From contig NZ_VMNK01000007.1 in NCBI RefSeq assembly GCF_007625155.1, positions 62,001 through 126,000 of the forward strand: a stretch of DNA of 64,000 nucleotides, written 5' to 3'. The notes below the pieces were generated by a model that saw only the letters and a program-made list of their open reading frames with translations, was not told the DNA's origin and searched no databases. The position numbers and the translations under genes were made by a program. The stretch's first letter is position 1. The number at the start of each line of letters is the position of its first letter. This document shows, piece by piece, positions 20,894 to 49,882 of this stretch. The stretch is from Denitromonas halophila. GTDB lineage: Bacteria; Pseudomonadota; Gammaproteobacteria; Burkholderiales; Rhodocyclaceae.

Positions 20894-22876
20894 CTATTGA
20901 AGGTTCGGCTGAACGATGCCGTAGCGCTTCATGCGCCGATAGACCGTGGCACGACACAGGCCAAGCTCTTCGGCAACGGCGGTAATGCACCACTTGTGCC
21001 GCTGCAATGACTCAAGCAACCACTGCCCTTCCTGATCACGCCATCGCGGCCGTTCCGCCTCGTGGGTTTCGGTGAGCGTTGCCACACGCGTCGGAAGCGG
21101 TGCTTCGCGAACATCAGTCAACGGACGCATCAGTTCACCGGGCAAGTCATCGAGATGGATGTTTCCGCCATCGCTCACCGCCAATGCGAAGCGCAGCACA
21201 TTGCGAAGCTGCCGCACATTGCCAGGCCAGTCGTGAGAGCAAAGTGCGGCCAGGGCGGGCGCCTCGATGCTGGCCGAGTCGCCCATCTCGACCGCCTCCT
21301 CAGCGGCCAGTCGGTCGATCAGGTACGCGATGTCTTGCCGCTCCCGCAAGGGCGGAAGATAGAGGATCGCACCGCACAGGCGATAGTAGAGATCCTCACG
21401 AAACAGGCCTTCAGCGATCAGTTTGCGCAAGTCACGATGCGAGGCCGCCACAACGGTCAGCCGGATGCTCTGCGGCTTGTCGCCGCCCAATGGCGTAATT
21501 TCCTTTTCGGCCAGCACACGCAGCAATCGGGTTTGCAGATGCGGCGGCATGTCGCCGATCTCATCCAGAAACAGCGTGCCGCCATCGGCCTGCGCAATCA
21601 AACCGCGCATGCCTTTGCTGCGGCCACCGGTAAATGCACCGGGCGCATAGCCGAAGAGTTCGCTTTCAATAAGCGACTCCGGAATCGCCGCACAGTTGAT
21701 GGCGACAAAGGCCTTGTCGCGGCGCTCGCTCGACTCATGCAGGGCCTTGGCCACCACTTCCTTGCCTGTGCCGGTTTCACCGTGGAGGAGAATATCGACC
21801 GATTTGTTGACCAGCCGCTTTGCCTGACGAATCAGGCGCTGCATCTGCGGATCATCGCCCGCCAGACGATCGAGCGCCGGCGCGCTGACCTCGGGCTCGG
21901 CATCGCGGGTGGCGAGCCGGCTCCCCGACAGCGCCCGCGGCGCAATCACGTCGGCATAGAACACCCCGTGCTGGTAGGTCGTCAAGGCCGAGCGCTGATT
22001 CGAAACGCCAGCCCGGGCTATACGCCATACCTCGGCAGCGCCTTCGCGGAAAATCATGTCCAGCGACGAGCCCACCAGCTCGGTCACCAAGCCACTCTCC
22101 CCGCCCCCGTTGAGCATCCGCCGCGCGCCGCTGTTGGCGCCGACAACGACCCCGTCGGCATCAAATGCCAGCATCAACTCGCCGCTGAGATCCACCATCG
22201 GCCACGCCGCTCCAAGGCGCAACACCGAGGCTTCGCGAAAGAAATGCATGAAGTTCGCATCTTCGATCATCTTCGCGTACATCATGGTCAATTGCAGCGC
22301 GAGATGCTGACTCTCCTTGGGCGAGGGCGAGGTCAGTGCCGAGACATCGAGCACACCCAGAAAATCACCGGTCGGATCGAGCAAGGGCGCGCTGTTGCAG
22401 GTGAGTCCGATGTGCGAGGCATCGAAGTGGTCCGTCTGATGACAGGTCATGGCCGTGCGATCGGCAATGCAGGTGCCCACCGCGCAAGTGCCCGCACGCG
22501 CCTCGCTCCAGTCAGCCCCAAGGTATAGGCCGGAGCGGCGCAACTCGCCCTGCCAGCGGTCATTGCCGATGAAATCAACCGTGATGCCGCGCGCATCGGT
22601 CAGCAGCAGCACGTAGCCGAGGTCGCACACCCGCTTGTAGAGTTGCTCCATGCCGGTGCGTGCGACCTGGAGAAAATCCTCGATCTGATCGCGATGCTCG
22701 CGCAAACGGCCCGCTTCAAGAATATGCGCCGGTGTAGGGCGTGTCGGGTCGAGATCATAGTCCTCGATGCAGCGCCGCCATGATTGCTGGATACGATCAG
22801 TGTGCACCGCGTCGGATCGCGTCGAAGACAACACGCGCTCGATATGCGCTCGTTGATCAATTTGATGCATCGTCAT
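20894..22876 (-). CDS. AcoR-like sigma-54-dependent transcriptional activator
   Basis: 660 residues. The N-terminal GAF-type sensory region (about 60-200) has RAGTCAVGTCIADRTAMTCHQTDHFDASHIGLTCNSAPLLDPTG, the AcoR signature. A PAS-like segment follows. The AAA+ domain has Walker [22 protein letters not shown] and the sigma-54 contact loop, which reads GAFTGG rather than the usual GAFTGA. The C-terminal Fis-type helix-turn-helix is ITAVAEELGLCRATVYRRMKR. ATG at 22876 with a perfect GGAGGAG site. It is the obvious candidate to act on the two sigma-54 promoters near 31.3 and 31.7 kb. Confidence 0.88.
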   Translation of the reverse strand: MTMHQIDQRAHIERVLSSTRSDAVHTDRIQQSWRRCIEDYDLDPTRPTPAHILEAGRLREHRDQIEDFLQVARTGMEQLYKRVCDLGYVLLLTDARGITVDFIGNDRWQGELRRSGLYLGADWSEARAGTCAVGTCIADRTAMTCHQTDHFDASHIGLTCNSAPLLDPTGDFLGVLDVSALTSPSPKESQHLALQLTMMYAKMIEDANFMHFFREASVLRLGAAWPMVDLSGELMLAFDADGVVVGANSGARRMLNGGGESGLVTELVGSSLDMIFREGAAEVWRIARAGVSNQRSALTTYQHGVFYADVIAPRALSGSRLATRDAEPEVSAPALDRLAGDDPQMQRLIRQAKRLVNKSVDILLHGETGTGKEVVAKALHESSERRDKAFVAINCAAIPESLIESELFGYAPGAFTGGRSKGMRGLIAQADGGTLFLDEIGDMPPHLQTRLLRVLAEKEITPLGGDKPQSIRLTVVAASHRDLRKLIAEGLFREDLYYRLCGAILYLPPLRERQDIAYLIDRLAAEEAVEMGDSASIEAPALAALCSHDWPGNVRQLRNVLRFALAVSDGGNIHLDDLPGELMRPLTDVREAPLPTRVATLTETHEAERPRWRDQEGQWLLESLQRHKWCITAVAEELGLCRATVYRRMKRYGIVQPNLQ

Positions 22877-22969
22877 GTCTCCTCCCAACGCCCAAGCGCT
22901 ACGCTCACGGTGCGTTGGAAATACGCCGGGTCCATCACTGGCCCGCGCTTATGTTTGTCTGTCACTTCC

Positions 22970-23139: not shown

Positions 23140-24423
23140 TTACGGAAACACCGCCAGCAACACCTCGCTGCGCTCGACCAGCCAGACCGAGGCCACGGCA
23201 ATGCATGGCCACGCCAGCGCATGCTGGTAGCGCAGTTGCGGATGTCGCCAGGCGCGCTGCACGGCCCAGAGTATTGGTGCGGCCACCAGCGACAAGGCCA
23301 GTTGGCCCAGTTCGATGCCGAGATTAAAACCGAGTACCACACTCAGGAAGCTGCCGCTGAGTGACGGCGCCACCGCCTGCAGCGCGAACGAAAATCCGAA
23401 GCCATGCACCAGCCCCACGCAGAACACCGCCGGCGCCAACATCGGACGTTCACCGTCGATCAGAATGCGCGCCCCCGCGTAGATGATGGAGGCGGCAATC
23501 GCGATCTCGACGGCCGGGGCAAACCAGGCCAGCTCCGACAAACCGCCCAGCGCGCCAACACACAGCGTGATCGAATGCCCGGCAGTAAAAGCCAGCGAGC
23601 TGCGCAGAAAGTGCGTCACCCCCCTCGCCCCGAGCAGCAGGACGAGGATGAACAGCACATGGTCCAGGCCGATCAGCACATGCTCAAAGCCCGAGACCAG
23701 GTAGCCCACAAAACCATCGGGCGCGGCGGCGGCCTGCGCGGGCGTTGCCACGTCCGGCGTACCGAGCAGCAAGTGCAAGGCCCCAAGGCTCTGGAAGCTG
23801 TCAACACGGCCATCCTCATGATGGCGGCGCACGATGTTCACCGCGCGAGAGGCCAACTCGGGCCACTCGCGTGCGCCACCGGCCAGCACCGGCACCGCGT
23901 CCGCCGCTGGCGCATCGAAACGCAGGCGCAGGCTGACCACGGCGTCGGCCAGATCGAGTTCAGTCGCCTCCCCCAGCGCCAGGCCCGGCAGAACGAACTG
24001 CTCCACCGCCGGCAAATAACTGAAAGGATCGCGCTCGGCCAGCGTGTCGATCCGCGCCCCTTCGAACCGACCGAGATGGCCGTCAAGCCGCAAAACCTCG
24101 CGCAATCGTGCGCGCAACCCGTCGGGGTCACGATGCAGGGCCGGCACGTCCACCGCCAGACGGCCGTCGGCATCGCGGCGCAGGAAGGGCGGCGGCGCCT
24201 GATTGCCGCCAGCCTGCCAGTCGGGCGGCAAGAGCGCCAGCGCCAGCGGCAACTGCACATACGCCCGCAACATGCCGTCGCGCGGCGCCAGGTGCACGAC
24301 GCGCGCCATGAAGTCCTGCACATGGGCTGCCACCGCGCCGCTGAAGCCCAGCAGCGCGGTGGTCAGGGCCAGGGCGCGCAGCAGGCGCACCCCTCGACCG
24401 CCGCTTACTGGCGCGGATCCCAC
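23140..24423 (-). CDS. HupE/UreJ-type membrane protein with exported N-terminal domain
   Basis: 427 residues. Signal peptide (LLRALALTTALLGFSGAVAA), a ~190-residue extracytoplasmic domain, then a C-terminal half with six or more helices. The latter carries the HupE/UreJ_2 signature: SGFEHVLIGLDHVLFILVLLLGA, FTAGHSITL and GLVHGFGFSFAL, with a row of histidines. HupE/UreJ proteins are linked to nickel/cobalt uptake, but this two-part subgroup often occurs in loci without nickel enzymes and its cargo is unknown. Last gene of the minus-strand operon; the GTG start overlaps the end of the VOC gene. GTG at 24390 is an alternative start. Confidence 0.75.
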   Translation of the reverse strand: MGSAPVSGGRGVRLLRALALTTALLGFSGAVAAHVQDFMARVVHLAPRDGMLRAYVQLPLALALLPPDWQAGGNQAPPPFLRRDADGRLAVDVPALHRDPDGLRARLREVLRLDGHLGRFEGARIDTLAERDPFSYLPAVEQFVLPGLALGEATELDLADAVVSLRLRFDAPAADAVPVLAGGAREWPELASRAVNIVRRHHEDGRVDSFQSLGALHLLLGTPDVATPAQAAAAPDGFVGYLVSGFEHVLIGLDHVLFILVLLLGARGVTHFLRSSLAFTAGHSITLCVGALGGLSELAWFAPAVEIAIAASIIYAGARILIDGERPMLAPAVFCVGLVHGFGFSFALQAVAPSLSGSFLSVVLGFNLGIELGQLALSLVAAPILWAVQRAWRHPQLRYQHALAWPCIAVASVWLVERSEVLLAVFP

Positions 24424-25019
24424 AGCCGCTCGCTCGTGGTCTGCTCATAGCCACGGCCGTCGGGCGCGGTGACCAGTTCCAGCTGCATGCCCCAGGGTGA
24501 CATGAAGTAGATCCAGGTCAGGCCCTTGAGCGGCCCTTCGGTGAACAGGTGCGGTTCGCCGAGGAACTTCACGCCCTTGCCTTGCATGTTGGCCATCGCC
24601 GCCTTCAGGTCATCCACATAGAAGGCGATGTGGTGGCCGCCCACGTCGCTGTTCCTGGGCGGCTGGGCTTTCTGGTCCGGCGAGGTGTATTCGAAGATCT
24701 CGAAGTTGGTGCCGTTGCCACAGCGCACCAGGTGAGCCACCGAAATCACGGCGCGTGGATTGACGTTGAGGTTCTCCTTCATCCAGTTGTCCTTGAACGG
24801 ACCGAAGGGGCCGATGGTGAAGAAGGCTTTGCAGCCCATGACGCCAACAAAGAAGTCGACCGCCTGCTGGGCGTTGGGCACGGTAAAGCCGAAGTGCTCG
24901 ACGCCGCGCATGCCGGGGACGCTATCGGCTTGCGCCACTGGTACAGCGGCAGCCATCGCAGCAGCGACGATGCCGTGGCGCAACCAGCGCCCGGCTCGGG
25001 AAGATGTGGTGTGGTTCAT
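24405..25019 (-). CDS. Secreted VOC (glyoxalase/dioxygenase fold) protein
   Basis: 204 residues. A clear signal peptide (RWLRHGIVAAAMAAAVPVAQA) precedes a VOC domain: GVEHFGFTVPNAQQAVDFFVGVMGC, then VGGHHIAFYVDDLKAAMANMQGKGVKFLGEP and MSPWGMQLELVTAP. The His in GVEHFGF, the His pair in VGGHHIAF and the Glu in MQLELVT could make a metal site. VOC enzymes are usually cytoplasmic, so the export signal is notable. It sits in an operon with two other exported or membrane products and may act on a periplasmic intermediate; the reaction is unknown. AAGGA ribosome site. Confidence 0.8.
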   Translation of the reverse strand: MNHTTSSRAGRWLRHGIVAAAMAAAVPVAQADSVPGMRGVEHFGFTVPNAQQAVDFFVGVMGCKAFFTIGPFGPFKDNWMKENLNVNPRAVISVAHLVRCGNGTNFEIFEYTSPDQKAQPPRNSDVGGHHIAFYVDDLKAAMANMQGKGVKFLGEPHLFTEGPLKGLTWIYFMSPWGMQLELVTAPDGRGYEQTTSERLWDPRQ

Positions 25020-25148
25020 GGTCTTGTGTCCTTGTTGGGGTTCTTGGGGGTGCTGCCGGTGCTGCAGACATGCGCTCCAACCAGAAAAAATCGGGGCACC
25101 GCAAGGCGGGCCCCCAAAACTCACGCGTGGAGGAGCGCGTTCGATACA

Positions 25149-25171
25149 CCGGTGTGCGCAATGCACACCGG
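25149..25171 (-). repeat. Intercistronic hairpin between the GMC and VOC genes
   Basis: CCGGTGTGC-GCAAT-GCACACCGG, perfect 9-bp stem, no T-run. In a 164-base gap inside the operon it probably affects mRNA stability or processing. Confidence 0.5.
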
Positions 25172-25183
25172 CAAAAGCCGGCC

Positions 25184-26758
25184 TCAGAGCTCCCGGCGGC
25201 GCATGGCACCGGCGATGTACTCGGCCTGGCGAATGGCCAGCGCAACGATGGTCAATGTCGGGTTGGCCGCACCGCTGGAAGTGAACTGGCTGCCGTCGGA
25301 GACAAACAGGTTCTTGATGTCGTGGGTCTGCCCCCACTTGTTCACCACGCCATCACTGGCCTTTTCGCTCATCCGGTTGGTGCCCATGTTGTGGCTGGCC
25401 GGATAGGGCGGCATGTCGATCACGCGGGTTGCGCCAACGGCTTCGGACAACTTGCGCCACTGGGCCAGACCGTGACGGCGCATGGCGGCGTCGTTGGTGT
25501 GGTCGGTCTTGGTGACGATGGGAATCGGCAGGCCGTGCTGATCCTTCTCGGTGGCGTGCAGGGTGATGCTGTTCTCTTCCTGCGCCAGATCTTCGCCGCA
25601 CACCCACACACAGCTCATGTGATCGAACTTCTCCAGCGCCGAGCTCACCTCACGCCCCCAGCCGCCGGGCTTCATGAAGGCCGCCGCGAACGGCAAGTGC
25701 AGCGCCAGACCTTCGAGGTGGTAGCCGCCCATGAAGCCGCGGTCCGGGTTGTTGGGCACTTCGTCGGACACCACGGCGGCGATGTCGAAGCCGCGATACA
25801 TGTACACCGGCCCCGGGTTGATGGTCAGCGCGGCGGCGGTGGTGTGGTTCATGTAGTTGCGCCCGACCTGACCGGAGGAGTTGGCCAGCCCGTTCGGGAA
25901 CATGCTGGAGGCGGAGTTGAGCAGCAGACGCGGCGACTCGATCGAGTTGCCGGCCACACACACCACACGTGCCTTCTGCAGATGCTGATTGCCGTCCTTG
26001 TCGGCGTAGAGCACACCGGTGGCCTTGCCGCTGCTGTCATGCTCGATGCGCAGCACCATGCTCTGCGGACGCAGTTCGGCATGGCCGGTCTTCATGGCGC
26101 GCGGGATCTCGGAGTACAGCGTCGACCACTTGGCGCCGATCTTGCAGCCCTGCATGCAGTAGCCGATCTGCTGACAGGCCGGGCGGCCATCGTTGGGCCG
26201 GGTGTTGGAGGCCACCGGACGGACGATGTCCTTGTAGCCGATCTTGCGCGCACCGGCCTCGATCACCTTGTAATGGTTGTTCGGCGGCATCGGCGGCAGG
26301 CCGCTGGCCTTGGTGCCGGCCACGCCCATCTTGCGCTCGGCGATCTCGTAGTAGGGCGCGAGCTCTTCGTAGCTGATCGGCCAGTCGAGCACATTGGCGC
26401 CCGGCACTTTGCCGTAGGTGCTCAGGGTCTTGAACTCGTGCGCCATGAAGCGCAGCGCCAGACCCGACCAGTGCATGGTCGAGCCGCCCACGCCTTTCAC
26501 GATCCAGGCCGGCAGGTTGGGATAGGTTTCGGTGTGATGCCAGCCGCCCGCCGAGATGCGCTTGTCGAGCCACGAGATCTTGGCAAACATCGCCCACTCG
26601 TCGTTCTCGAAGTCTTCCTGAGTATGGTGCTTGCCGGCTTCGAGGATCACCACATCCACGCCTTCGCGGGTCAGCTCGTCGGCCAGGGTGCCGCCGCCGG
26701 CGCCCGAGCCGACGATCACGACGACGCTGTTGTCGTCCTTGGAAAAGGTCTTGCTCAT
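25184..26758 (-). CDS. GMC-family flavoprotein dehydrogenase (large subunit)
   Basis: 524 residues. FAD-binding motif VVIVGSGAGGGTLADELTREGVDVVILEAG at the N-terminus. The catalytic His lies in the late PASHNMGTNRMSEKA segment, with a GMC C-terminus SDGSQFTSSGAANPTLTIVALAIRQAEYIAG. It resembles the large subunit of membrane gluconate/sorbitol-type dehydrogenases. It has no signal of its own and would be co-exported with the Tat-bearing small subunit encoded just upstream, passing electrons to a cytochrome. Substrate: an alcohol or polyol, not identifiable from sequence. Confidence 0.85.
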   Translation of the reverse strand: MSKTFSKDDNSVVVIVGSGAGGGTLADELTREGVDVVILEAGKHHTQEDFENDEWAMFAKISWLDKRISAGGWHHTETYPNLPAWIVKGVGGSTMHWSGLALRFMAHEFKTLSTYGKVPGANVLDWPISYEELAPYYEIAERKMGVAGTKASGLPPMPPNNHYKVIEAGARKIGYKDIVRPVASNTRPNDGRPACQQIGYCMQGCKIGAKWSTLYSEIPRAMKTGHAELRPQSMVLRIEHDSSGKATGVLYADKDGNQHLQKARVVCVAGNSIESPRLLLNSASSMFPNGLANSSGQVGRNYMNHTTAAALTINPGPVYMYRGFDIAAVVSDEVPNNPDRGFMGGYHLEGLALHLPFAAAFMKPGGWGREVSSALEKFDHMSCVWVCGEDLAQEENSITLHATEKDQHGLPIPIVTKTDHTNDAAMRRHGLAQWRKLSEAVGATRVIDMPPYPASHNMGTNRMSEKASDGVVNKWGQTHDIKNLFVSDGSQFTSSGAANPTLTIVALAIRQAEYIAGAMRRREL

Positions 26759-26794: not shown

Positions 26795-27388
26795 TCAGGC
26801 CTTGGGCAGCCAGTCGAGATCGTCGAAACCACGATCGACATAGCCGCCCTTCTCCCACGACGAGCCTTCCTCGCCGAACAGGGGCCACACCGCCTTGTTG
26901 TTGTAGAAACCGGTCACCATGTCGCCCTTGATCTTCTGAAAGAAGGCGCCGTGCTCGATGGTGTAGAGCAGGGTCAGACGCTCGGTTTCGGTCGGCACCT
27001 CGGCATAGGGTTTGCCAAACTGCGCGGTCGCCAGCGCGTCGAGCTGGGCAATGCCATCGCCAATCAGTTTGGCCAACGCCGGGTCCTTGGCCGCGGCCGC
27101 GTCGTATGGCTCAATGGCCAGCATGTAGAAGCGGTCGGAGATCTTGTCGTGCGGGAAAATATCGCGCGCCATCACCAGCAAGGTCTTGCCGACGCCAGGG
27201 CCGAGATGGGTGAAGCTCGCCGCCAACGCTTCTCGTGCCGGCACCATGAGGCTGCCCGCCGACAGCGCGGTCACGCCGGCTGCGGCCAGACCCGAGCCTT
27301 TGAGAAATGCCCGCCGGCTGACGGCAATGCGCTTTTCCGGCACGCGCATGCCCTGCGCGGGGGGGGATTGGTGCTGATCGTCGTTCAT
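26795..27388 (-). CDS. Gluconate 2-dehydrogenase subunit 3-family protein (Tat-exported)
   Basis: 197 residues. The twin-arginine signal is SRRAFLKGSGLAAAGVTALSAG. The mature part (DIFPHDKISDRFYMLAIEPYDAAAAKDPALAKLIGDGIAQLD) matches the small subunit that accompanies GMC dehydrogenases and carries them through the Tat pathway. Strong AAGGAAGGAG ribosome site. The gap to the GMC gene is 36 bases, consistent with a heterodimer. Confidence 0.87.
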   Translation of the reverse strand: MNDDQHQSPPAQGMRVPEKRIAVSRRAFLKGSGLAAAGVTALSAGSLMVPAREALAASFTHLGPGVGKTLLVMARDIFPHDKISDRFYMLAIEPYDAAAAKDPALAKLIGDGIAQLDALATAQFGKPYAEVPTETERLTLLYTIEHGAFFQKIKGDMVTGFYNNKAVWPLFGEEGSSWEKGGYVDRGFDDLDWLPKA

Positions 27389-27415: not shown

Positions 27416-28168
27416 TCAGGCTTGGGGGCCCGCGGTCGCCTGCGCGCCGCGAGGGAATGTCGGGAACTCGCCGAGCACATCGGCGAGCATCTGTTGCAGG
27501 TCAGAAGCAAAGCTGTCGGCCAGCGGTGCGGCGCCGAGCTGCTCTTCGCATGAGGTGGTGACACGCGCCAGCGCCGCCGCGTCGCCGGCCGGGCGCGCCA
27601 GCACGGTGCATAGCGCCTGCCAGTCGGGACTCGCCAGCAAGGTGCCCGAGGTGAGCAGCACGCCATTGCGGCGGCGCAGTTGCGCCAGACCGGCAATCTT
27701 CTTGCCGTCGGCGACCACCTCCCATGGCGAAAAACTGCCAAAGCAGGCCCAGTTGAGCGCCGGGTCGCTCGGCGTGCGCCGCACCTCTTCCGGGGTCAGC
27801 GCGCGGGCCGGCACATCCATGTCACGCAGCAGACCGGCGATCAAGGCACCAAGCCAGCGGTAACTGGAGACCGTGCCGCCACCGAGCAGACGATGGTCGG
27901 GCGGCAGCACGATCGAGGTGCTGAGCATCCACGGACCGGTCAGCACCGCCCCGCCGCCGGAGCGACGCTGGACCATTTCGGGCAAATCCGTGCCGCCACG
28001 TGCGCGCGCCAGCATCGCCGCCTGGGAGCAACCAAAGACCACGCCAGGGCGACGGTAGGTCCACAAGCGCAATTGCGGCGTGTGCACCGGATGCTCGAGC
28101 AAGGCTTCGTGCCAGCGCTGTTCTTGCGCGCAACTGACCACGGCGAGGCGGGGATCGTCGGTCAGCAT
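27416..28168 (-). CDS. Lipoate-protein ligase A family protein
   Basis: 250 residues. LplA-type motifs: RRSGGGAVLTGPWMLSTSIVLP (lipoyl-AMP binding loop) and DGKKIAGLAQLRRRNGVLLTSGTLL with the catalytic Lys. Its start overlaps the stop of the E2 gene by one base, so it is coupled to the dehydrogenase genes. The likely client is the free lipoyl-domain protein encoded at 28873-29118. A dedicated ligase implies the complex needs its own lipoylation. Confidence 0.85.
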   Translation of the reverse strand: MLTDDPRLAVVSCAQEQRWHEALLEHPVHTPQLRLWTYRRPGVVFGCSQAAMLARARGGTDLPEMVQRRSGGGAVLTGPWMLSTSIVLPPDHRLLGGGTVSSYRWLGALIAGLLRDMDVPARALTPEEVRRTPSDPALNWACFGSFSPWEVVADGKKIAGLAQLRRRNGVLLTSGTLLASPDWQALCTVLARPAGDAAALARVTTSCEEQLGAAPLADSFASDLQQMLADVLGEFPTFPRGAQATAGPQA

Positions 28169-28869
28169 TACAGCGCTGCCGTCTCGATGCGGCGGGCCAG
28201 ATCACCAAGAAACAGCGCCGCGGGGTAGCCATCCACGACGCGGTGATCGAATACCAGGTGCAGGCCCATCATCGGCGCGCTGACAATCTCGCCGTCGCGC
28301 ACCACCGGCCGGTCGAGCACCCGCGTCACGCCCAGAATGGCGACCTGCGGCGGATTGATGATGGGCGAGAAGCGGTCGATGGCGGTCATGCCCAGGTTGC
28401 TCACCGTAAAGGTGGCGCGCTGATAGCTGCCGGCGCTGAGCGTGCCGGCACGGGCCCCCTCGGCCAGACGTCGCAATTCGGATGTCAGAGCCGGCAGCGA
28501 CAGGGTGTCGGCCTCGCGGATGACCGGCACCATCAGCCCATCGTCGAGACTGACCGCCACACCGAGGTTGATGTCGGGCATCAGCTCGGCGGCCTTGTCG
28601 CGCATCAGGGCGTTGAGCCGCGGATGCTCGCGCAGAGTCAGCGCCACCGCGCGCAGCAGCAGCACGGTGAGGCTGGGCCGGTGGCCTTCGCCGGCCAGCG
28701 CCTCGCGCATGGCCTTGAAGCGACTCACATCCACGTCGATCGAATGCGCCACCCGCGGGATCTGCCAGCCCTGCCCCATGCTGCGGGCGATGGCGCCGCG
28801 CAGCCCGGTGAGCGGCAGCATGCGGTCGGCCGTGTCGTCGGCGGCCGGGGTGATTGCCGAAGTGCTCAT
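28168..28869 (-). CDS. E2 acyltransferase catalytic core of a 2-oxoacid/acetoin dehydrogenase-like complex
   Basis: 233 residues consisting of the catalytic domain alone. LTGLRGAIARSMGQGWQIPRVAHS starts the acyltransferase fold, and FDHRVVDG (residues 207-214) holds the catalytic His and Asp. No lipoyl domain and no peripheral-subunit-binding domain precede it; the first ~18 residues are a linker. Ordinary E2 proteins exceed 370 residues. The missing lipoyl domain is encoded separately by the next upstream gene, only 3 bases away. Confidence 0.87.
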   Translation of the reverse strand: MSTSAITPAADDTADRMLPLTGLRGAIARSMGQGWQIPRVAHSIDVDVSRFKAMREALAGEGHRPSLTVLLLRAVALTLREHPRLNALMRDKAAELMPDINLGVAVSLDDGLMVPVIREADTLSLPALTSELRRLAEGARAGTLSAGSYQRATFTVSNLGMTAIDRFSPIINPPQVAILGVTRVLDRPVVRDGEIVSAPMMGLHLVFDHRVVDGYPAALFLGDLARRIETAAL

Positions 28870-28872: not shown

Positions 28873-29118
28873 TCAGGCCTCGAGCACCGCGAGCACCACC
28901 CCGCGACCGAAGGTGTCATCCGCCGCCACCGCAAGCCGGGCGACCGTGCCGGCGGCGGGGGCCAGAATCTCGTGGGTGGTCTTCACCAGTTCGGCCACGC
29001 CAAGCACATCGCCGGACTCGACCTTGTCGCCCACGGCGACCTGCCATTCCTGCAGCAGCGCCTCGGTGCCTTCTTCCACGTCCGCCCACACGGCGTCATC
29101 CAGAACAATATCGGTCAT
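28873..29118 (-). CDS. Free-standing lipoyl-domain carrier protein
   Basis: 81 residues, one complete lipoyl/biotinyl domain: WQVAVGDKVESGDVLGVAELVKTTHEILAPAAGTVARL. The lipoylated lysine is K46 in ELVKTTHE. It would shuttle the acyl group between E1 and the stand-alone E2 core. The arrangement resembles a glycine-cleavage H-protein in concept but the neighbours are E1/E2 genes. Confidence 0.87.
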   Translation of the reverse strand: MTDIVLDDAVWADVEEGTEALLQEWQVAVGDKVESGDVLGVAELVKTTHEILAPAAGTVARLAVAADDTFGRGVVLAVLEA

Positions 29119-29132: not shown

Positions 29133-30167
29133 TCAATCGAGGTTGAGTTGCATCAGCGCGCGCACGGCGTCGGCAATGCTGTCCACTTGCGGGATGGCAA
29201 ACTGCTCGAGCGGGCGGCTGAACGGAATCGGCACATCGGGCACCGCCAGGCGGCGAACCGGGGCCTTGAGCTGCAGATGGTTGAGCTGCTCGGCGATGAT
29301 CGCGGCGATCTCGCCGGAGACGCCGAAGGAGAGGTAGTCCTCGTCGGCGATCAGCACACGGCCGGTCTTGCCGACCGAACGCAGCACCGTCTCCTTGTCG
29401 AGCGGCACCAGCGTGCGCAGATCGACGATCTCGACGTCGATGCCCTCGGCGGCGAGCTTGTCGGCCGCCAGCAGCGACTTCTGCACCATCTGCGACAGGG
29501 TCACGATGGTCAGGTCCTTGCCTTCTCGAACCACTTTGGCCTGGCCGAAGGGGATGGTGTAGGGCTCGGCCGGCACTTCGTTGGTGCTGCCCTCGAAGTA
29601 GGACATCCACGACAGACCCATGATGCCCTTGTGGTACATGAAGACCACCGGGTTGTCGTCGCGGATGGCCTGGATCATCAAGCCCTTGGCGTCGTAGGCG
29701 TTCGACGGCACCACCACCTTGAGACCCGGCATGTGGGCGAAGGTGGCGTACAGGCACTGCGAGTGCTGGGCCGCGTCGTTGTAGCCGCCGCCAATGCCCG
29801 TGGTGATGACCACCGGCAGCTTGACGTTGCCGCCCGACATATAGGTGTTCTTGGCCAGATGGTTGTAGATCTGGTCGAAGCACACGCCGAAGAAATCGAC
29901 AAACATCAGCTCCGAAATCGGCCGCAGCCCTTCGGCTGCCGCACCGATCGCGGTGCCCATGAAACCGGTCTCGGAAATCGGCGTGTCCATGATCCGGTCG
30001 GGGCCGAACTTGTCGAGCAGGCCGGTGGTGGCGCTGAAAATGCCGCCGTACTTGCCGATGTCCTCGCCCATCACGAAGACCCGGTTATCGCGCTCCATCT
30101 CCTGGCTGATGCCCTCTGAAACGGCTTCGGCCATGGTCAGCGTGCGCACCTTGGTTGCAGTGCTCAT
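29133..30167 (-). CDS. Acetoin dehydrogenase-like E1 component, beta subunit
   Basis: 344 residues, transketolase pyrimidine and C-terminal domains: MGEDIGKYGGIFSATTGLLDKFGPDRIMDTPISETGFMGTAIGAAAEGLRPI and later VPLDKETVLRSVGKTGRVLIADED. Together with the alpha subunit it forms the thiamine-diphosphate-dependent E1. Closest families are AcoB and the branched-chain/pyruvate E1 beta subunits; acetoin-type is favoured by the AcoR-like regulator and small size, not proven. Confidence 0.88.
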   Translation of the reverse strand: MSTATKVRTLTMAEAVSEGISQEMERDNRVFVMGEDIGKYGGIFSATTGLLDKFGPDRIMDTPISETGFMGTAIGAAAEGLRPISELMFVDFFGVCFDQIYNHLAKNTYMSGGNVKLPVVITTGIGGGYNDAAQHSQCLYATFAHMPGLKVVVPSNAYDAKGLMIQAIRDDNPVVFMYHKGIMGLSWMSYFEGSTNEVPAEPYTIPFGQAKVVREGKDLTIVTLSQMVQKSLLAADKLAAEGIDVEIVDLRTLVPLDKETVLRSVGKTGRVLIADEDYLSFGVSGEIAAIIAEQLNHLQLKAPVRRLAVPDVPIPFSRPLEQFAIPQVDSIADAVRALMQLNLD

Positions 30168-30200: not shown

Positions 30201-31211
30201 TCAGTCGGCAAAGACATGCAGCAGCGCGTCTTCCGGGGCCGGATACGGGCTGTTGCGAGCATGTTCATACGCCGCCTGCACCCGCACACTGACCGTGCTG
30301 CGCAGCGCCGCATCCTTGGCGTCATCGAGTTCGCCGCGCTCACGCAGCTGCGCGCCGAGCACATTGATCGGGTCGTTTTCGCGCAGATGCTGGGCTTCGT
30401 TCTTGGGCCGGTAGGTTTCCGGGTCGCCCTGGAAGTGCCCCAGGTAGCGGTCGGTCTTGACCTCGATCAGCGTCGGGCCTTCACCCCGCCGTGCCCGCGC
30501 CACCGCCTCACCGGCCGCCGCGAACACCGCCACTGCATCGTTCTTGTCGACCAGCACGCCGGGCATGCCGTAGCCGGCCGCGCGGTCGGCGTTGGAAGCG
30601 ATGGCCGTCGATGCCGACTTCTCCACCGAGATGCCGTACTTGTTGTCTTCGCACACGAAGATCACCGGCAACTTCCACAGCGAGGCCAGATTGAGCGCCT
30701 CGTGGAATGAGCCCTGGTTGGCCGCCCCTTCACCAAAAAAGGACACCGCCACCCAGTCCTTGCCGAGCTTCTTGGCCGCCAGCGCCGCACCGCAGGCCTG
30801 TGGTGCGCCCGCGCCGACGATGCCGCTGCACGAGAACTTCACCGCCGGATCGAACAAGTGCATGTGACCGCCCTTGCCCTTGCCCAGCCCGTTCTCCTTG
30901 CCGAACATCTCGGAGGTCATCGCCAACAGATCAACGTCCTTGGCGATGGCGAAGTGGTGCGGGCGGTGCGCGCCGACCACGGTGTCTTCGCGGCGCAGGT
31001 GGGCACACACGCCCACCGCCACCGGCTCCTGACCCGCCGCCAGGTGCATCTCACCCGGCACCGGGCCGGCACCGATATCAAAGGCCAGGCCTTTCTGGAT
31101 CTTGGGTGGCAGCTTGCCCTCGAGATAGACCTTGGCCATGGTCTCCTCGTACTCCCGGATCTCGACCATCTTTTCGTACATCCACAGCAGCTGTTCGGAC
31201 GTGGGGTCCAT
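30201..31211 (-). CDS. Acetoin dehydrogenase-like E1 component, alpha subunit
   Basis: 336 residues. The thiamine diphosphate motif is visible as VSFFGEGAANQGSFHEALNLASLWKLPVIFVCEDN. Substrate-side segment MFGKENGLGKGKGGHMHLF is typical of AcoA/PdhA. First gene of the minus-strand operon, 90 bases after a sigma-54 promoter. The E1 heterotetramer would decarboxylate a 2-oxoacid or cleave an alpha-hydroxyketone/diketone and hand the acyl group to the lipoyl carrier. Confidence 0.88.
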   Translation of the reverse strand: MDPTSEQLLWMYEKMVEIREYEETMAKVYLEGKLPPKIQKGLAFDIGAGPVPGEMHLAAGQEPVAVGVCAHLRREDTVVGAHRPHHFAIAKDVDLLAMTSEMFGKENGLGKGKGGHMHLFDPAVKFSCSGIVGAGAPQACGAALAAKKLGKDWVAVSFFGEGAANQGSFHEALNLASLWKLPVIFVCEDNKYGISVEKSASTAIASNADRAAGYGMPGVLVDKNDAVAVFAAAGEAVARARRGEGPTLIEVKTDRYLGHFQGDPETYRPKNEAQHLRENDPINVLGAQLRERGELDDAKDAALRSTVSVRVQAAYEHARNSPYPAPEDALLHVFAD

Positions 31212-31300: not shown

Positions 31301-31317
31301 TGCAAGAGCGGTGCCAG
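31301..31317 (-). promoter_or_regulatory. Sigma-54 promoter of the E1-E2-GMC operon
   Basis: On the minus strand CTGGCAC-CGCTC-TTGCA matches the -24/-12 consensus TGGCAC-N5-TTGC exactly. Predicted start about 80 bases ahead of the E1 alpha ATG. Confidence 0.85.
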
Positions 31318-31424
31318 AAGCGGAAAAGCACCCAAAAAGACATTTCAAGCCACTGTTTTTATTGCTTTTTTATAATTTCTCTGGCCTCGACGAGGCTCCT
31401 TTCGGAGCGCCCGCCGTCGCACCG

Positions 31425-31444
31425 GGTGCGACAGATGTCGCACC
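31425..31444. promoter_or_regulatory. Enhancer-like dyad 1 for the AcoR-like activator
   Basis: GGTGCGACA and TGTCGCACC, a perfect 9-bp dyad with a GA spacer, placed about 135-155 bases upstream of the minus-strand sigma-54 start and ~250 from the plus-strand one. Confidence 0.65.
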
Positions 31445-31569
31445 GGATTAAACGGGTGTATGCCTGATGCGACGCGGCGAAGGCCGTGGTGTCAGAGCCG
31501 GTCGTTCGGCGCCACAAACTGACATCTCGCGGCGCACTCTTTTGCCCGCCCAAGACATCGCGAACACGG

Positions 31570-31584
31570 TGCAACAGATGTCGC
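31570..31584. promoter_or_regulatory. Enhancer-like dyad 2
   Basis: TGCAACA-GA-TGTCGC repeats dyad 1 with the same GA spacer and one mismatch. It lies about 110-125 bases upstream of the plus-strand sigma-54 start. TGTCGC and TGCGACA half-sites also occur near 31611 and 31733. Confidence 0.6.
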
Positions 31585-31670
31585 TTGCGTCGCAGAGCGC
31601 CCACACCAAGTGTCGCTCCGCTGCGCCTACCCAAACATGCTAGCCATTGATTTTTAAAGGATTTTACCCG

Positions 31671-31685
31671 TGGCACAGAAGTTGC
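31671..31685 (+). promoter_or_regulatory. Sigma-54 promoter of the porin/quinoprotein unit
   Basis: TGGCAC-AGAAG-TTGC matches the -24/-12 consensus exactly. It is 136 bases before the porin ATG, leaving a ~125-base leader. Confidence 0.85.
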
Positions 31686-31820: not shown

Positions 31821-32993
31821 ATGAAGAAAAATCAATCACGCTCGGTCGCGGGTCGCGCAAGCGCCACGGCAGCCATAGCCTTGACCGCGCTGGCGCTGAC
31901 GACAGCTTCGGGCATCGTCCACGCAGGCACGGTCATCGGCGAAATCGGTGGAACCAAGATCTCCATCTTCGGGATTCTCGACGCCGGCCTGCTCTACCAG
32001 AGCAAGTCGGGCACCAAGGGCAAAGCCAAGTCCTCGCTGGAAACCAGCGGGATCACACCGACCATCATCGGCTTCAAGGGCGAGCGGGATCTTGAAGACG
32101 GGCTCAAGGCCTTTTTCAATCTTGAAGCCCACTTCGACCTCAACAACGGCATGTTTCACGGCTCCGGCGATGCCGACGGCACCGGCTCGCCGCTATTCCG
32201 TCGCCAGGCCAACATCGGATTGAGCGGCGACTGGGGCAGCGTGACGCTGGGTCGGCAATACGGCCCGGCCTTGCTGGCACACGTCGGCACCGAGGCGCGC
32301 GGCTTCAAGGAGCAGTTCTCGAACGTCTACGCCTGGGCCTACAACCAGTACGCCGCCACGGCTGGCGCGGTGGGCACCGAGCGCAACACCAACAACGACG
32401 TCGGCATTTTCTTCAACAATGCCGTGCAATACCGCCACACCCTCGGCCCGGTGAACTTCGGCGTGTTGTGGGCGCTGGGCGGCAAGTCAGGCAGCACCAC
32501 CAACAACAGCGCCTGGGCGCTCGGCGCGACCTACACCGGGCCGGTCACGCTGTCCGCGTCCTATCAGGTGATCAAGGATGAAGACACCGGCAACAACAAC
32601 GTCAAACACGGCGGTGTCGGCATCGCGGTGCCTTACGGGCCCTTCACCTTCAAGGCGAACTACCTCAACGCCAAAAACGAGACGCGCTCCGGTGCCAACG
32701 TATCGGATGTCGGCGCACTCGGCCTGGGTATCGACTGGAAATGGCACGCCAAGCACACCGCGACCCTCGCCTATTACAACAACAAGGACGATCGCAACCC
32801 CAACGACAAGACCACCAACCTCGTCATCAGCAACGACTACGCCATTCGCCCCGACACCACCCTCTACGTGCAGATGGCGCACATCGACGCGGGCTCGGCG
32901 GCCACCATCAAGACCAGCATCGTCGCGGCCGGCATTCCGGCCGTGGGTGAGTCAGCGACGCTACTCAACGTCGGTCTGAATTTCGCTTTCTGA
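31821..32993 (+). CDS. Gram-negative general porin (Burkholderia type)
   Basis: 390 residues. Long signal peptide ending GIVHA, then alternating beta-strand pattern: SIFGILDAGLLYQS near the start, RQANIGLSGDWGSVTLGRQYGPALL in the middle and a C-terminal Phe (LLNVGLNFAF) required for outer-membrane insertion. First gene of the plus-strand sigma-54 unit, so it probably admits the growth substrate of the regulon. Confidence 0.9.
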   Translation: MKKNQSRSVAGRASATAAIALTALALTTASGIVHAGTVIGEIGGTKISIFGILDAGLLYQSKSGTKGKAKSSLETSGITPTIIGFKGERDLEDGLKAFFNLEAHFDLNNGMFHGSGDADGTGSPLFRRQANIGLSGDWGSVTLGRQYGPALLAHVGTEARGFKEQFSNVYAWAYNQYAATAGAVGTERNTNNDVGIFFNNAVQYRHTLGPVNFGVLWALGGKSGSTTNNSAWALGATYTGPVTLSASYQVIKDEDTGNNNVKHGGVGIAVPYGPFTFKANYLNAKNETRSGANVSDVGALGLGIDWKWHAKHTATLAYYNNKDDRNPNDKTTNLVISNDYAIRPDTTLYVQMAHIDAGSAATIKTSIVAAGIPAVGESATLLNVGLNFAF

Positions 32994-33073: not shown

Positions 33074-34744
33074 ATGAAACTGATCAACCCCATCCGCCTG
33101 GCGCCGCTCGCGCTCGCCTTGAGCTGCGTTGGCGCCATCGCCGCCGGCGACGCCAAGCCCGGTTTCGACGACCCCGACAACTGGCCGCAATACCATCGCA
33201 GCTCAAACGCCTGGCGTTTCAGCCCGCTGACCGAGATCAACAAGGACACCATCAAGAAGCTCAAGGTGGCGTGGATTCATCAGCCCGGCAATATCACCCA
33301 TGGCCTGCAGGCGACGCCGATCATTCTGGACGGCGTGCTCTACTACATCTCGGCCTTCAACAACGTGTGGGCCGTTGATGCCGCCAGCGGCAAGACGCTG
33401 TGGCACTACGAACCCAAGCTCGACCCGATCTCCAAGCAGGTGTTCTACGCGGCAGCCAGCCGCGGCGTGACCGTCGGTCGCGGCAAGGTGTTCATTGGCA
33501 CGCTCGACGGCCGCTTCATCGCCCTCGACCAGACGAGCGGCAAGGAAGTCTGGTCCACCCAGCTGAGCGACCTCAAGACCCAGCACGGCGCCTTGTTTTC
33601 GGCCCCGCCGCAACTGGCTGGCGACGTGCTGTTTGGCGGCACCACCGGCGGCGACCAGCCGATCGCGGGCAAGATCTACGCGGTCAATGCCGACACCGGC
33701 AAACCGGCGTGGACCTTCGAAGTCATCAAGGATGACCAGGAGAGCTGGCCGGGCGACTCGGGCAAGCGCGGTGGCGGCTCGGCATGGATGCCGGGCACCT
33801 ACGATGCGCAGTCGGACACCATCTTCATCGGCACCTCGAACGCCGCGCCGGACTTCTACGGTGTCGACCGCAAGGGCGATAACAAGTACACCGCCACCTT
33901 GCTGGCAATCGATCCGAAAACCGGCAAGCTCAAGTGGCACCGTCAGGAGATCCCGCACGACGTGTGGGACTTCGACTCGGCGTACGAAGCGCTGGTGGTC
34001 AAGAAGGACGGCAAGGATGTGATCGTCCATCTGAACAAGAGCGGCTTCGTGTTCGTGATGGACAAGGCCGATGGCAAGCTGGAAAACGTGTGGCAGTTCG
34101 CCGAGAACATGAACTGGGCCAAGGGCATCGACCCGAAGACCGGCGCGCTGATCGAACCGCGCAGGCCGCAACCTGGCAAGCGCGAGCTGCTGTGCCCCAA
34201 CCTGCTCGGCGCACGCAGCTGGAACCACGGCGCCTACAACCCCGGCACCGGCCTGTGGTACTCGCATGCCATGGAAGTGTGCAACGAGGTGGTCTCGGGC
34301 AAGGATGACCCGGACAGTCTCAAAGCGATTTCGGCGCTGTCGCTCGGTATCGACGAAATCAAACTGGTGCCGCCGCCCAACAGCAAGGACCCGTACGGCC
34401 GCCTGGATGCGCGTGACCCGCTCACCGGCAAGCTCAAGTGGAGCATCCGCTACGACCTGCCGCCGCTCTCCAGTGTCCTCACCACCGCTGGCGGACTGGT
34501 GTTCACCGGCGACATGGAAGGTCATCTGTTTGCCTACGACGCCGACAACGGCAAGCAGCTGTGGCAATTCAATGCCGGCTCCGGCGCACGCGGCGGCCCG
34601 GTGAGCTACGCCGTCAATGGCAAGCAATACATCGTCATCCCGACCGGACTCGGCTCCCATGCGCCGGGCTTCCTGGCCGGCGCCTTCCCTCAGATCAAGG
34701 ATCTGCCGGGGGGTGCCGCGCTGATCGGCTTCACGCTCGAGTAA
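33074..34744 (+). CDS. PQQ-dependent (quinoprotein) alcohol dehydrogenase
   Basis: 556 residues with a signal peptide (PLALALSCVGAIAAGDA) and eight-bladed propeller repeats of the PQQ family (for example TGKLKWHRQEIPHDVWDFD, VWAVDAASGKTLWHYEP). The catalytic Asp is D299 in WDFDSAYE. The residue two further on is Asp (D301), the position that is Asp in lanthanide-dependent enzymes and Ala/Ser/Thr in calcium ones. The vicinal Cys-Cys pair near PQQ is absent: the region reads VFYAAASRGV. It should oxidise an alcohol or aldehyde in the periplasm and reduce the cytochrome encoded next. Metal preference is inference. Confidence 0.87.
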   Translation: MKLINPIRLAPLALALSCVGAIAAGDAKPGFDDPDNWPQYHRSSNAWRFSPLTEINKDTIKKLKVAWIHQPGNITHGLQATPIILDGVLYYISAFNNVWAVDAASGKTLWHYEPKLDPISKQVFYAAASRGVTVGRGKVFIGTLDGRFIALDQTSGKEVWSTQLSDLKTQHGALFSAPPQLAGDVLFGGTTGGDQPIAGKIYAVNADTGKPAWTFEVIKDDQESWPGDSGKRGGGSAWMPGTYDAQSDTIFIGTSNAAPDFYGVDRKGDNKYTATLLAIDPKTGKLKWHRQEIPHDVWDFDSAYEALVVKKDGKDVIVHLNKSGFVFVMDKADGKLENVWQFAENMNWAKGIDPKTGALIEPRRPQPGKRELLCPNLLGARSWNHGAYNPGTGLWYSHAMEVCNEVVSGKDDPDSLKAISALSLGIDEIKLVPPPNSKDPYGRLDARDPLTGKLKWSIRYDLPPLSSVLTTAGGLVFTGDMEGHLFAYDADNGKQLWQFNAGSGARGGPVSYAVNGKQYIVIPTGLGSHAPGFLAGAFPQIKDLPGGAALIGFTLE

Positions 34745-34829: not shown

Positions 34830-35519
34830 ATGAAACAAAGCGGCCACTTCCCCGGCATCGTCCGCCTGCCTCGCCCCACTGTCCGGCGCCTGATCGTTTC
34901 GCTATGCGTGAGCCTGTGGACCAGCACCACTTGCTTCGCTGTCGCCCCACCCGCCGATCCGGCGCGCGCGCAGCTTGCCGCCGGCAAGAGTCGTTTCGAC
35001 AAGCTGTGCGTGAGCTGCCACGGACCAGACGGCGCGGGCAAGGACACCTACGGCCCCAAATTGCAGCATCGGCCTGAGCTTACCGAAGCGCAGATCCGCG
35101 AACGCATCATCCAGGGCAAGCACGGCGACCACGCCATGCCGCCGTGGGGCACCGTGCTCGATGGCAAAGCCATCGACGAGCTCGTCGCCTATGTCGGCAT
35201 CCTGCGCCAGCCCGCTGAAAAGCAAAGCACCGCGCCGCTGTCCCCCTTCGATCTCTACGACCCCGCACGGATCGAAAACGGACGCAAACGATTCGCCAAA
35301 ACCTGTGCCGGCTACTGCCATGGCCACGAAGGCGTCGGTGGCCGTGCACCGGACTTCAAAGGCCGCACCGACCTTGGCGCCCAACAGACCTTCGATGTCA
35401 TTTTTCATGGTCGCATGGGCTCGGACGTCATGCCGCCATGGGGCGACGCATTCTCGGAGGAGAAAATCTGGGAACTGGTGGCCTACCTGCAACATCTCGG
35501 ACGACAAAAGCTGGACTAG
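34830..35519 (+). CDS. Diheme c-type cytochrome, electron acceptor of the quinoprotein
   Basis: 229 residues with a signal sequence (about 20-38) and two cytochrome-c domains. Haem 1 is CVSCH (60-64) with Met ligand in HAMPPWG. Haem 2 is CAGYCH (159-164), a CX3CH variant rather than CX2CH, with Met ligand in DVMPPWG. Placed 85 bases after the PQQ enzyme, so it is the likely electron acceptor. Confidence 0.87.
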   Translation: MKQSGHFPGIVRLPRPTVRRLIVSLCVSLWTSTTCFAVAPPADPARAQLAAGKSRFDKLCVSCHGPDGAGKDTYGPKLQHRPELTEAQIRERIIQGKHGDHAMPPWGTVLDGKAIDELVAYVGILRQPAEKQSTAPLSPFDLYDPARIENGRKRFAKTCAGYCHGHEGVGGRAPDFKGRTDLGAQQTFDVIFHGRMGSDVMPPWGDAFSEEKIWELVAYLQHLGRQKLD

Positions 35520-42792: not shown

Positions 42793-43581
42793 TCAAATGA
42801 AGCGCAAGGACGTGCTGCCCATGCCCTGGATGCGCAAGGTGACTGAGTCGCCCGCCGCCACCGGAATGGCCTCGGTGATGCCGCCGGAGAGGATCAGCGT
42901 GCCGGCCGGAATCTCCTCACCGCGCTTGCCCAGCATGTTGGCCAGCATGGCGATGGCCGCCGCCGGATGGCCGAGCACCGCCGCGCCAGCGCCGAGCGCG
43001 ACCGGCTCGCCGTTCTTCTCCAGCACCACGCCGACGGTGCGCAGGTCCACATTGGCCACCGGCTGCGGCTGGCCGCCGATGACGAAGCGCGCGGCCGAGG
43101 TGTTGTCGGCCACCACGCTCTTCAGGTCGAACTTGAAATCGCGGTAGCGGCTGTCGATGACCTCGATGCCCGGCATGACAAAATCGGTCGCCGCCAGCAC
43201 CGCGCCGATATGGCAGCCCGGTCCGCGCAAGGCGGTCTTGGTGACGAAGGCGATCTCCGGTTCGACCTTGGGGTGGATCAGCTCGGAGACCTTCACCTCG
43301 CCGGCATCAGGCACGGCATAGTAGTCGGCCATGAAACCGAACACCGGCTCGGTCACGCCCATCTGCTTCATCTTGGCGTGCGAGGTCAGCCCGGCCTTGA
43401 GGCCGACGATCTTGTGACCGCGCGCGATCTTGCGCGCCCGGATCAGGTCCTGAATGGCGTAGGCGTCATCCCAGTCCATGTCCGGGTAGTCGTCGGTGAT
43501 CTTGTGGGTGTCCTGCGCTTCGAGCTCGCAGTTTTCGAGATGCTCGGCAAGTTTGGCAATGGTGGCTTGATCAAGCTTCAT
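42793..43581 (-). CDS. dmpH: 4-oxalocrotonate decarboxylase
   Basis: 262 residues of the hydratase/decarboxylase family: [30 protein letters not shown] and [20 protein letters not shown] with the metal-binding Glu pair. It decarboxylates 2-oxohex-3-enedioate to 2-oxopent-4-enoate, in complex with DmpE. Overlaps dmpG by 4 bases. Confidence 0.92.
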
Positions 43582-44609
43582 GCCGCCACCCCGCGCTGTT
43601 TGGCCAGATTCATCGCGGTGTCCTCGATCATGTCTTCCTGCCCCCCGACCATGCCGCGCCGGCCCATCTCGACCAGGATGTCGCGCGCCGACACGCCGTA
43701 TTTCTTCTCAGCGCGCTTGGCGAACAGCAGGAAGGAGCCATACACGCCGGCATAGCCGAGGGTGAGCGCGTCGCGGTCGATGCGGATCGGGAAGTCCATG
43801 ATCGGCACCACCCGGTCTTCGGCCACGTCCTGGATCTTGAACACATCCACGCCGGTCTCGATGCCCATCAAATCGCACACTGCGACCAGCACTTCCATCG
43901 GCGTGTTGCCGGCGCCGGCACCCAGGCCGGCCGCCGCAGCGTCGATGCGGTTGGCGCCGACTTCAATCGCAGCGATCGAGTTGGCCACGCCCATGGCCAG
44001 GTTGTGGTGGCCATGGAAGCCGAGCTCGGTCTCCGGCTTGAGCGCCTCGCGCACCGCGCCGAGCCGGGCCTTGACGGTGTCGGGCAGCAGATGGCCGGCC
44101 GAATCGGTGATGTAGATGCAGTTGGCGCCGTAGCTCTCCATCAGCTTGGCCTGCGTCACCAGCCCCTCGGGGCTGTTCATGTGCGCCATCATCAGGAAAC
44201 CGACAGTGTCCATCTCGAGCTTGCGGGCCAGGCCGATGTGCTGTTCGCTCACATCCGCCTCGGTGCAGTGGGTGGCCACGCGGATGGTGTTCACGCCCAG
44301 TTCGTGCGCCATCTTGAGATGATCGACGGTGCCGATGCCCGGCAGCAGCAGTGCCGAGACCCTGGCCTGCTTCATCAGCGGGATCACCGTCGAGAGGTAT
44401 TCCTCGTCGGTGTGCGCCGGAAAACCGTAGTTCACCGAGCTGCCGCCCAGGCCGTCGCCATGGGTGACTTCGATCAACGGGATGCCCGCCTCGTCGAGGC
44501 CGACCGCGATGTTCTTCATCTGCTCCAGCGTCATCAGGTGGCGCTTGGGGTGCATGCCGTCACGCAGGGTCATGTCATGCACGGTAATTTTCTTGCCTTT
44601 GAGTGTCAT
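43578..44609 (-). CDS. dmpG: 4-hydroxy-2-oxovalerate aldolase
   Basis: 343 residues. HMGL-like TIM barrel: [23 protein letters not shown] with the metal-binding Asp, and [46 protein letters not shown]. It splits 4-hydroxy-2-oxovalerate to pyruvate and acetaldehyde and channels the latter to DmpF, encoded 10 bases upstream in the transcript. Confidence 0.95.
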
Positions 44610-44619
44610 GGCACGCTCC

Positions 44620-46142: not shown

Positions 46143-46152
46143 GGTTGTCTCC

Positions 46153-46935: not shown

Positions 46936-46944
46936 GGGTCTTCC

Positions 46945-47790: not shown

Positions 47791-47798
47791 GACGGTGC

Positions 47799-49253: not shown

Positions 49254-49260
49254 GTGTCGT

Positions 49261-49728: not shown

Positions 49729-49753
49729 GACTGTTTGCCTTTCGCCTGTGTTG

Positions 49754-49773
49754 ATACGAACAATATTTCGTAT
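49754..49773. promoter_or_regulatory. GntR-type operator dyad
   Basis: ATACGAA-CAATAT-TTCGTAT, a perfect 7-bp dyad that overlaps the predicted -10 of the hbpS-dmpC operon and lies 110 bases before the divergent gntR gene. Confidence 0.55.
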
Positions 49774-49810
49774 TATTCTCGACGTCAACACATTTTCTCG
49801 AGATTTTTAT
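49760..49810 (-). promoter_or_regulatory. Promoter block 1 (hbpS-dmpCDEFGHI) with CTCGAG palindrome
   Basis: On the minus strand: AAAATCTCGAGAAAAT, then TTGACG (-35, 49783-49788), 17-base spacer and TATTGT (-10, 49760-49765). The block is repeated almost unchanged upstream of the second catechol dioxygenase gene (53331-53380). Confidence 0.6.
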
Positions 49811-49882
49811 ATTTCACCGAACATTGCTGTTTCGATAGAATGAGCACGTCATTCGCGCACCCGCAAAGGAACAAGGATCGCC

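Follow-up and report, generated by a model that had tools for sequence, protein, structure and literature searches.

Genes and control elements of the divergent locus

In the window (the whole 64-kb stretch of DNA that was analysed), a minus-strand operon that begins with the gene for an E1 alpha subunit faces away from a plus-strand unit encoding a porin, a quinoprotein and a cytochrome c. The genes of both units, and the activator gene in the same neighbourhood, are:

20894..22888, minus strand: AcoR-like sigma-54 activator with AAA+ domain, Fis-type HTH and the loop GAFTGG
23140..24423, minus strand: HupE/UreJ-like membrane protein
24405..25337, minus strand: VOC/glyoxalase-fold protein (longest ORF)
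25184..26758, minus strand: GMC oxidoreductase, with the fructose dehydrogenase large subunit as its nearest solved relatives
26795..27388, minus strand: gluconate 2-dehydrogenase subunit 3-like protein with a twin-arginine-like N-terminus (by inspection)
27416..28168, minus strand: lipoate-protein-ligase-like protein
28168..28869, minus strand: E2 acyltransferase catalytic domain without a lipoyl domain
28873..29118, minus strand: free-standing lipoyl-domain protein (start by inspection)
29133..30167, minus strand: E1 beta subunit
30201..31211, minus strand: E1 alpha subunit; the operon starts with this gene
31821..32993, plus strand: porin
33074..34744, plus strand: PQQ-dependent alcohol dehydrogenase (quinoprotein, methanol/ethanol family)
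34830..35519, plus strand: cytochrome c with two cytochrome-c stretches

The HupE-like and AcoR-like genes are separated by about 250 bases. The longest ORF of the VOC protein overlaps the GMC gene, and its true start probably lies later. The nearest relatives of the PQQ dehydrogenase come from Zoogloeaceae bacterium G21618-S1 (97%), followed by Denitromonas iodatirespirans and others (92%). Elsewhere in the window, a phenol hydroxylase/catechol 2,3-dioxygenase meta-cleavage cluster (42793-60714) includes an XylR/DmpR-type sigma-54 activator gene (59032-60714); two catechol-dioxygenase-like genes lie in tandem (51210-52136 and 52330-53256), and a gene for a TIR-domain protein (10218-10994) is located about 2.6 kb past electron-transfer-flavoprotein genes.

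The predicted control elements between the E1 alpha and porin genes are:

31302..31316, minus strand: sigma-54 -24/-12 element TGGCACCGCTCTTGC, predicted promoter of the E1/E2 operon; exact match, one of the blocks most conserved across the 8 aligned loci
31346..31358, minus strand: IHF-like site with 1 mismatch, between the E1-side array and its promoter
31406..31421, unstranded: degenerate dyad at a step of 21 bases from the main dyad, with a right half GTCGCA (31416-31421) that does not vary among the 8 aligned loci
31425..31444 (core 31427-31442), unstranded: putative main enhancer dyad GGTGCGACA-GA-TGTCGCACC; exact, conserved in orthologous loci
31448..31463, unstranded: weak, degenerate third dyad at +21
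31570..31585, unstranded: porin-side dyad TGCAACAGATGTCGCT
31602..31617, unstranded: second porin-side dyad with the right half TGTCGCT, 32 bases beyond the preceding one
31640..31652, minus strand: IHF-like site with 1 mismatch, between the porin-side dyads and their promoter
31671..31685, plus strand: sigma-54 -24/-12 element TGGCACAGAAGTTGC, predicted promoter of the porin/quinoprotein/cytochrome unit; exact match, conserved

The two sigma-54 elements are exact matches to TGGCAC-N5-TTGC that face apart, as the first-pass annotation had read them, and no further exact match occurs in the window. They carry the GG of the -24 and the GC of the -12 element; passages of PMC6615313 give the element as TTGGCATNNNNNTTGCT. 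When one mismatch is allowed, the window contains 10 sites, compared to a mean of 7.2 in shuffled sequences, with 10 or more in 15 of 100 shuffles. One-mismatch sites are thus near the chance level here, and only the exact pair is informative. The whole 4.39 Mb genome, which also encodes RpoN, contains 24 exact sites, versus 5 for a reversed control pattern.

The main dyad, claimed earlier as perfect with a GA spacer, is indeed exact. It is the single exact copy of TGCGACA-N2-TGTCGCA in the 4.39 Mb of the genome, and 0.03 matches with up to three mismatches are expected by chance from shuffles of the window; a control pattern with the arms in the wrong order gave four matches, every one with three mismatches. 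The "near copy" of the earlier reading is present on the porin side, although imperfect, with two mismatches to the 14-base core. Likewise, the distance of 110-155 bases proposed between each dyad and a promoter holds for the E1 side (110 bases) and fails for the porin side, where the two dyads lie 85 and 53 bases from the plus promoter. The main dyad itself is 228 bases from that promoter.

Additional dyads had been overlooked. On the E1 side, neighbours at exactly 21 bases to either side of the main dyad have means of 8.8 and 7.8 matches out of 14 over six loci (the near-duplicates L005 and L042 being left out), with a background of 3.6 out of 14 (sd 1.7); the GTCGCA half-site at 31416-31421 is 21 bases from the right arm of the main dyad. 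On the porin side, the second dyad at a step of 32 bases has a mean of 10.6 matches out of 14 over five loci.

Conservation of promoters and dyads in related genomes

An E1 alpha ortholog (E up to 1e-120) was found in 19 of the 249 genomes of the family searched, the organism's own included. In 16 of the 19, a sigma-54 site with at most one mismatch is located upstream, and in 15, again counting its own, such a site is combined at near-constant spacing with a dyad of at most three mismatches; for L207, about 660 bases of upstream DNA were searched for promoter and dyad. L205 (AcoR ortholog 58%) has sigma-54 sites and no dyad within three mismatches. The exact dyad is single, and placed at this promoter, in seven of nine genomes; the other two have a one-mismatch dyad at the E1 promoter. 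The gap between the E1-side dyad and its promoter falls into two classes that differ by about one helical turn, 110-114 bases in 10 and 121-124 bases in 6 of the 16 loci measured; in L241, measured separately (as L203), it is 122 bases.

The alignment covers eight loci that have E1 alpha and share the divergent order of the sigma-54 pair. Their intergenic identity is mostly 46-67% (88 and 91% for two near-duplicate pairs), with a background of about 50%. Among 16-column blocks, the most invariant are the dyad with 13 invariant columns and each promoter with 10; 2000 column shuffles averaged 6.7 and never exceeded 10. The E1-side dyad and both sigma-54 sites therefore stand out from the flanking DNA, so that the conservation in orthologous loci on which the first-pass reading depended was found. 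Dyads at looping distance from the promoter are thus conserved, which is consistent with an upstream activating sequence of the candidate activator.

The porin-side dyads are conserved less than the E1-side dyad. Dyads of the same core are located 84-87 and 52-55 bases from the plus promoter in seven loci (the window, L005-L009 and L042). Five others (L192, L194, L195, L196 and L198) have porin-side dyads with three mismatches only, spaced 23 bases apart in L196 and L198, and none were found in L034, L238 or L240. In L238 and L240, a single dyad is seen between the promoters, 122 bases from one and 77 bases from the other.

The E1-side IHF-like site is perfect in three of the eight aligned loci (L008, L009 and L034) and has one mismatch in the other five; it lies 29 bases from the sigma-54 element in seven, including the window, and 39 bases in L034. 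The porin-side site has one mismatch in seven of the eight, with no site in L034. The matches in the window alone are not above chance (P 0.16 on the E1 side, 0.07 on the porin side), and the part assigned to IHF is accordingly modest.

Two related loci contain another quinoprotein/cytochrome unit (29% quinoprotein match), adjoined by an exact sigma-54 site and dyads of the same core (L237:5361-5541 and L241:5276-5470, in the orientation with E1 alpha on the minus strand). In the organism itself, the region C28:213439-213757 (equivalent to L124:8440-8757), before a second quinoprotein gene, has a one-mismatch dyad that abuts a sigma-54-like element, with an exact sigma-54 site facing the opposite way. 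This gene (C28:213723) is a possible further target; its conservation in G001 does not exceed that of the entire region (87%) and is thus uninformative.

The AcoR-like protein and its putative binding site

The activator gene noted earlier in this neighbourhood encodes a sigma-54 interaction AAA+ domain (PF00158) and a Fis-type HTH (PF02954); among the best 25 of 29 NCBIfam models compared with the protein, none reaches its cut-off. Its loop reads GAFTGG where GAFTGA is the criterion, and GxFTGG replaces GAFTGA in the members of the clade that were read, except L033/L101. According to PMC4641369, GAFTGG allows activity in Desulfovibrio vulgaris. Relatives of the activator at about 41% identity adjoin homologs of E1 alpha and E1 beta, which we take for acoABC-like genes.

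In each of the eight genomes with an aligned locus, a single protein is closely orthologous to the AcoR-like activator (64-97%), and the next among the proteins listed is at most 44% identical. In a sample of 33 chosen genomes, an ortholog (58-97%) is present in 15 of the 18 with E1 alpha versus none of the 15 without it (best match 43%), with the ortholog cut placed by us at the step from 58% to 43%. Fisher tests of this co-occurrence, with relatedness ignored, gave values of 1e-6 and 0.005. The three E1 alpha genomes that lack the activator are the three that lack the sigma-54 site, and their E1 alpha proteins are the most diverged (72-73%); one of them, L206, has a three-mismatch dyad far off, at -611. 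The activator gene is on the same contig as E1 alpha and within about 10 kb of it in 11 of the 15 genomes, so that part of the co-occurrence comes from the cluster being inherited as a unit. In G779 (the same as G005) the two genes are about 1 Mb apart, and in three genomes they are on different contigs.

An exact dyad is located directly 5' of more distant acoR orthologs (50-58%) in three loci, L040 and L043 (Azohydromonas) and L139. As a point against this activator, a search upstream of acoR in the window itself gave no dyad. Together, the co-occurrence and the dyads directly upstream of these three orthologs support the AcoR-like protein as the best candidate for binding the dyads.

A comparison of half-sites with recognition helices gave a further lead, and no more than a lead. 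At E1-operon or acoR promoters, all 38 half-sites (19 loci) that accompany an AcoR of the window type have C as base 3, and 33 of the 34 half-sites (17 loci) that accompany an AcoR with an SRATFYRK or PRATFYRK helix have A; the count is not blind, because the sites were chosen by scans for the C-type core. The mis-oriented row L234, which reads TGCGACAGATGTCGCA, was dropped. Also outside the count are L203/L241, with one C arm and one A arm and an AcoR with S instead of C before RAT (L222), and L022, L023, L037 and L041, which are of the SRATFYRK type and have no dyad within three mismatches beside acoR. Against a strict code, the Methyloversatilis-type loci L024-L032 have TGTCGCA right arms before the porin in nine of nine cases together with an SRATFYRK-type AcoR. 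L035-L037 are hybrids, and L239 and L242 keep C half-sites with V or A before RAT. Against the AcoR-like protein as the binder, L171 has a similar recognition helix (CRATVYRK), and the roughly 1.5 kb preceding its gene contain no dyad. In a class-wide sample of 29 loci of diverged AcoR homologs, no TGNGACA-N2-TGTCNCA dyad with at most one mismatch was found 5' of the gene, L173 being present without its 5' flank.

Tentatively, a distinct AcoR clade (GxFTGG; helix mostly CRAT[V/I]YR[R/Q]MK) may read TGCGACA-N2-TGTCGCA arrays phased on one helix face, with one hexamer-seeding array firing two divergent promoters, and a sister clade (SRATFYRK) may read TGAGACA-N2-TGTCTCA; we consider this reading possible, and somewhat doubtful as a whole.

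Alternative explanations and the proposed regulon

The dyad could be the operator of some other regulator, such as a BlaI/CopY-type repressor or a different enhancer-binding protein of the same genome. BlaI/CopY-type operators have a related ACA-N2-TGT centre, and in G064 two exact dyads, 34 bases apart, are located at the start of a Penicillinase_R (BlaI-like) gene (L138:7385-7434), where a regulator of another family may read this same sequence. The organism's own genome, moreover, yields 20 matches to the activator query, and the window itself encodes the XylR/DmpR-type activator described above. However, none of the nine promoter-carrying genomes has a Penicillinase_R match above the cut-off (one sub-threshold match is found in G005), and the runner-up among the 20 matches is only 37% identical. 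With co-occurrence compared for the AcoR-like protein alone, we rate another regulator as quite unlikely.

A survey across the order found the exact dyad in 7 of 300 genomes, its own included, and the reversed control in 3 of 300, figures that on their own would suit a chance resemblance in GC-rich DNA, as would the one-mismatch sigma-54 sites at chance level in the window. Of the eight foreign exact dyads, two are near an AcoR-like gene (L135 and L139), the gene in L135 being split over two frames and having a different helix; two are those at the BlaI-like gene (L138). Those in L137, L140 and L141 have no AcoR-like match, with a one-mismatch sigma-54-like site about 260 bases away in L140. 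The motif alone is therefore not diagnostic. Chance and composition were nevertheless rejected as hardly credible, being contradicted by the conservation over a background identity of about 50% and by an exact dyad that is unique and fixed in place in seven of nine genomes. The remaining foreign dyad (L136:7248-7744) is flanked by two divergent sigma-54 sites, one belonging to a DctP-type transporter operon and the other to a thiolase/AMP-ligase operon; no AcoR-like match was found in the 15 kb surrounding it.

The two adjacent units might also not form one regulon, if the dyads serve one promoter or if the two sides are bound by different proteins. In L239, L241 and L242, the E1 sigma-54 site is kept and no divergent sigma-54 site or quinoprotein ortholog is seen beside it, the dyad also persisting in L239 and L242; the main dyad is 228 bases from the plus promoter, and several loci have weak porin-side dyads or none. 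Against this, the same core recurs at a fixed distance on both sides in seven loci, which makes independent control less likely, and quinoprotein genes of Azohydromonas carry dyads alone: in L039, L040 and L043 (Azohydromonas among them), dyads precede the quinoprotein gene with no sigma-54 site of at most one mismatch there, and the Azohydromonas loci have no close relative of the E1 operon within the stretch examined. We regard separate control as unlikely. The earlier proposal that a single regulon ties the E1/E2/GMC/VOC operon to the porin/quinoprotein/cytochrome unit is thus supported by the dyads on both sides and by the Azohydromonas loci.

Probably, then, a single enhancer-binding protein of the AcoR type controls the divergent sigma-54 promoters. 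As dimers, the AcoR-like protein would bind the TGCGACA-N2-TGTCGCA dyads, arrayed on one helix face at intervals of 21 bases on the E1 side and of 32 bases on the porin side. The inducer sensed is probably a short-chain alcohol, diol or carbonyl product. On induction, the dimers would form a hexamer, make contact with RpoN-polymerase through looping, perhaps with IHF assisting, and open both promoters. Both units would be switched on together, the porin, PQQ dehydrogenase and cytochrome c for outer-membrane and periplasmic alcohol oxidation, and the GMC dehydrogenase and E1/lipoyl/E2 complex for downstream oxidation. As a pathway, periplasmic oxidation of a 1,2-diol or hydroxy compound may give a 2-oxo acid or ketone, which may then be cleaved or decarboxylated to an acyl-CoA. 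Findings that fit a simple version of this scheme poorly are those on L205, L171 and L135, the inconstant porin-side dyads and the mixed half-sites of the Methyloversatilis-type loci.

The type of control is already known and fairly ordinary; the proposed regulon is probably new. The AcoR/acetoin operons of Bacillus and Clostridium, as described in parts of PMC6615313, likewise combine a sigma-54 promoter, a 2-oxoacid-dehydrogenase-like operon and, next to it, a one-component enhancer-binding protein. Unlike those systems, the targets here are the GMC/E1/lipoyl/E2 operon and the PQQ alcohol dehydrogenase unit, the loop is GAFTGG and the dyad is TGCGACA-N2-TGTCGCA, a comparison that does not extend to known AcoR sites. 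In the reconstructed sigma-54 regulons of Clostridiales (sections of the same source), several sites per operon are found, mostly 100-250 bp from the promoter, with the activator gene usually near its targets, as here; TGT-N10-12-ACA motifs occur in 15 of the 39 activator groups there, compared to an ACA-N2-TGT centre here. The BmoR/P_BMO system of Thauera butanivorans, from parts of PMC8899819, similarly combines an alcohol-responsive sigma-54 activator, an upstream site (reported at 193 bp upstream) and an IHF-like element between them; it differs in having a single promoter, in a comparison that includes neither its repeat nor its protein. For NorR-type enhancers, cited in a passage of PMC8899819, three dimer sites are suggested to seed one hexamer. 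Three putative sites are likewise present here, with the differences that the outer two are degenerate and that the array lies between two promoters. A literature search found no link of TGCGACA or TGTCGCA to an AcoR protein; most subscription papers were outside its coverage, and an earlier description is possible.

In Denitromonas-like bacteria, the regulon would couple periplasmic PQQ alcohol oxidation to an E1/free-lipoyl/E2 operon, and a candidate activator and its site are assigned for the alcohol-oxidation regulon. If the clade reading is true, base 3 of the half-site would be part of a readable protein-DNA code, and if the correlation between half-site and helix is real, it may yield two orthogonal AcoR activators, each with its promoter, for use in BmoR-like alcohol biosensors.
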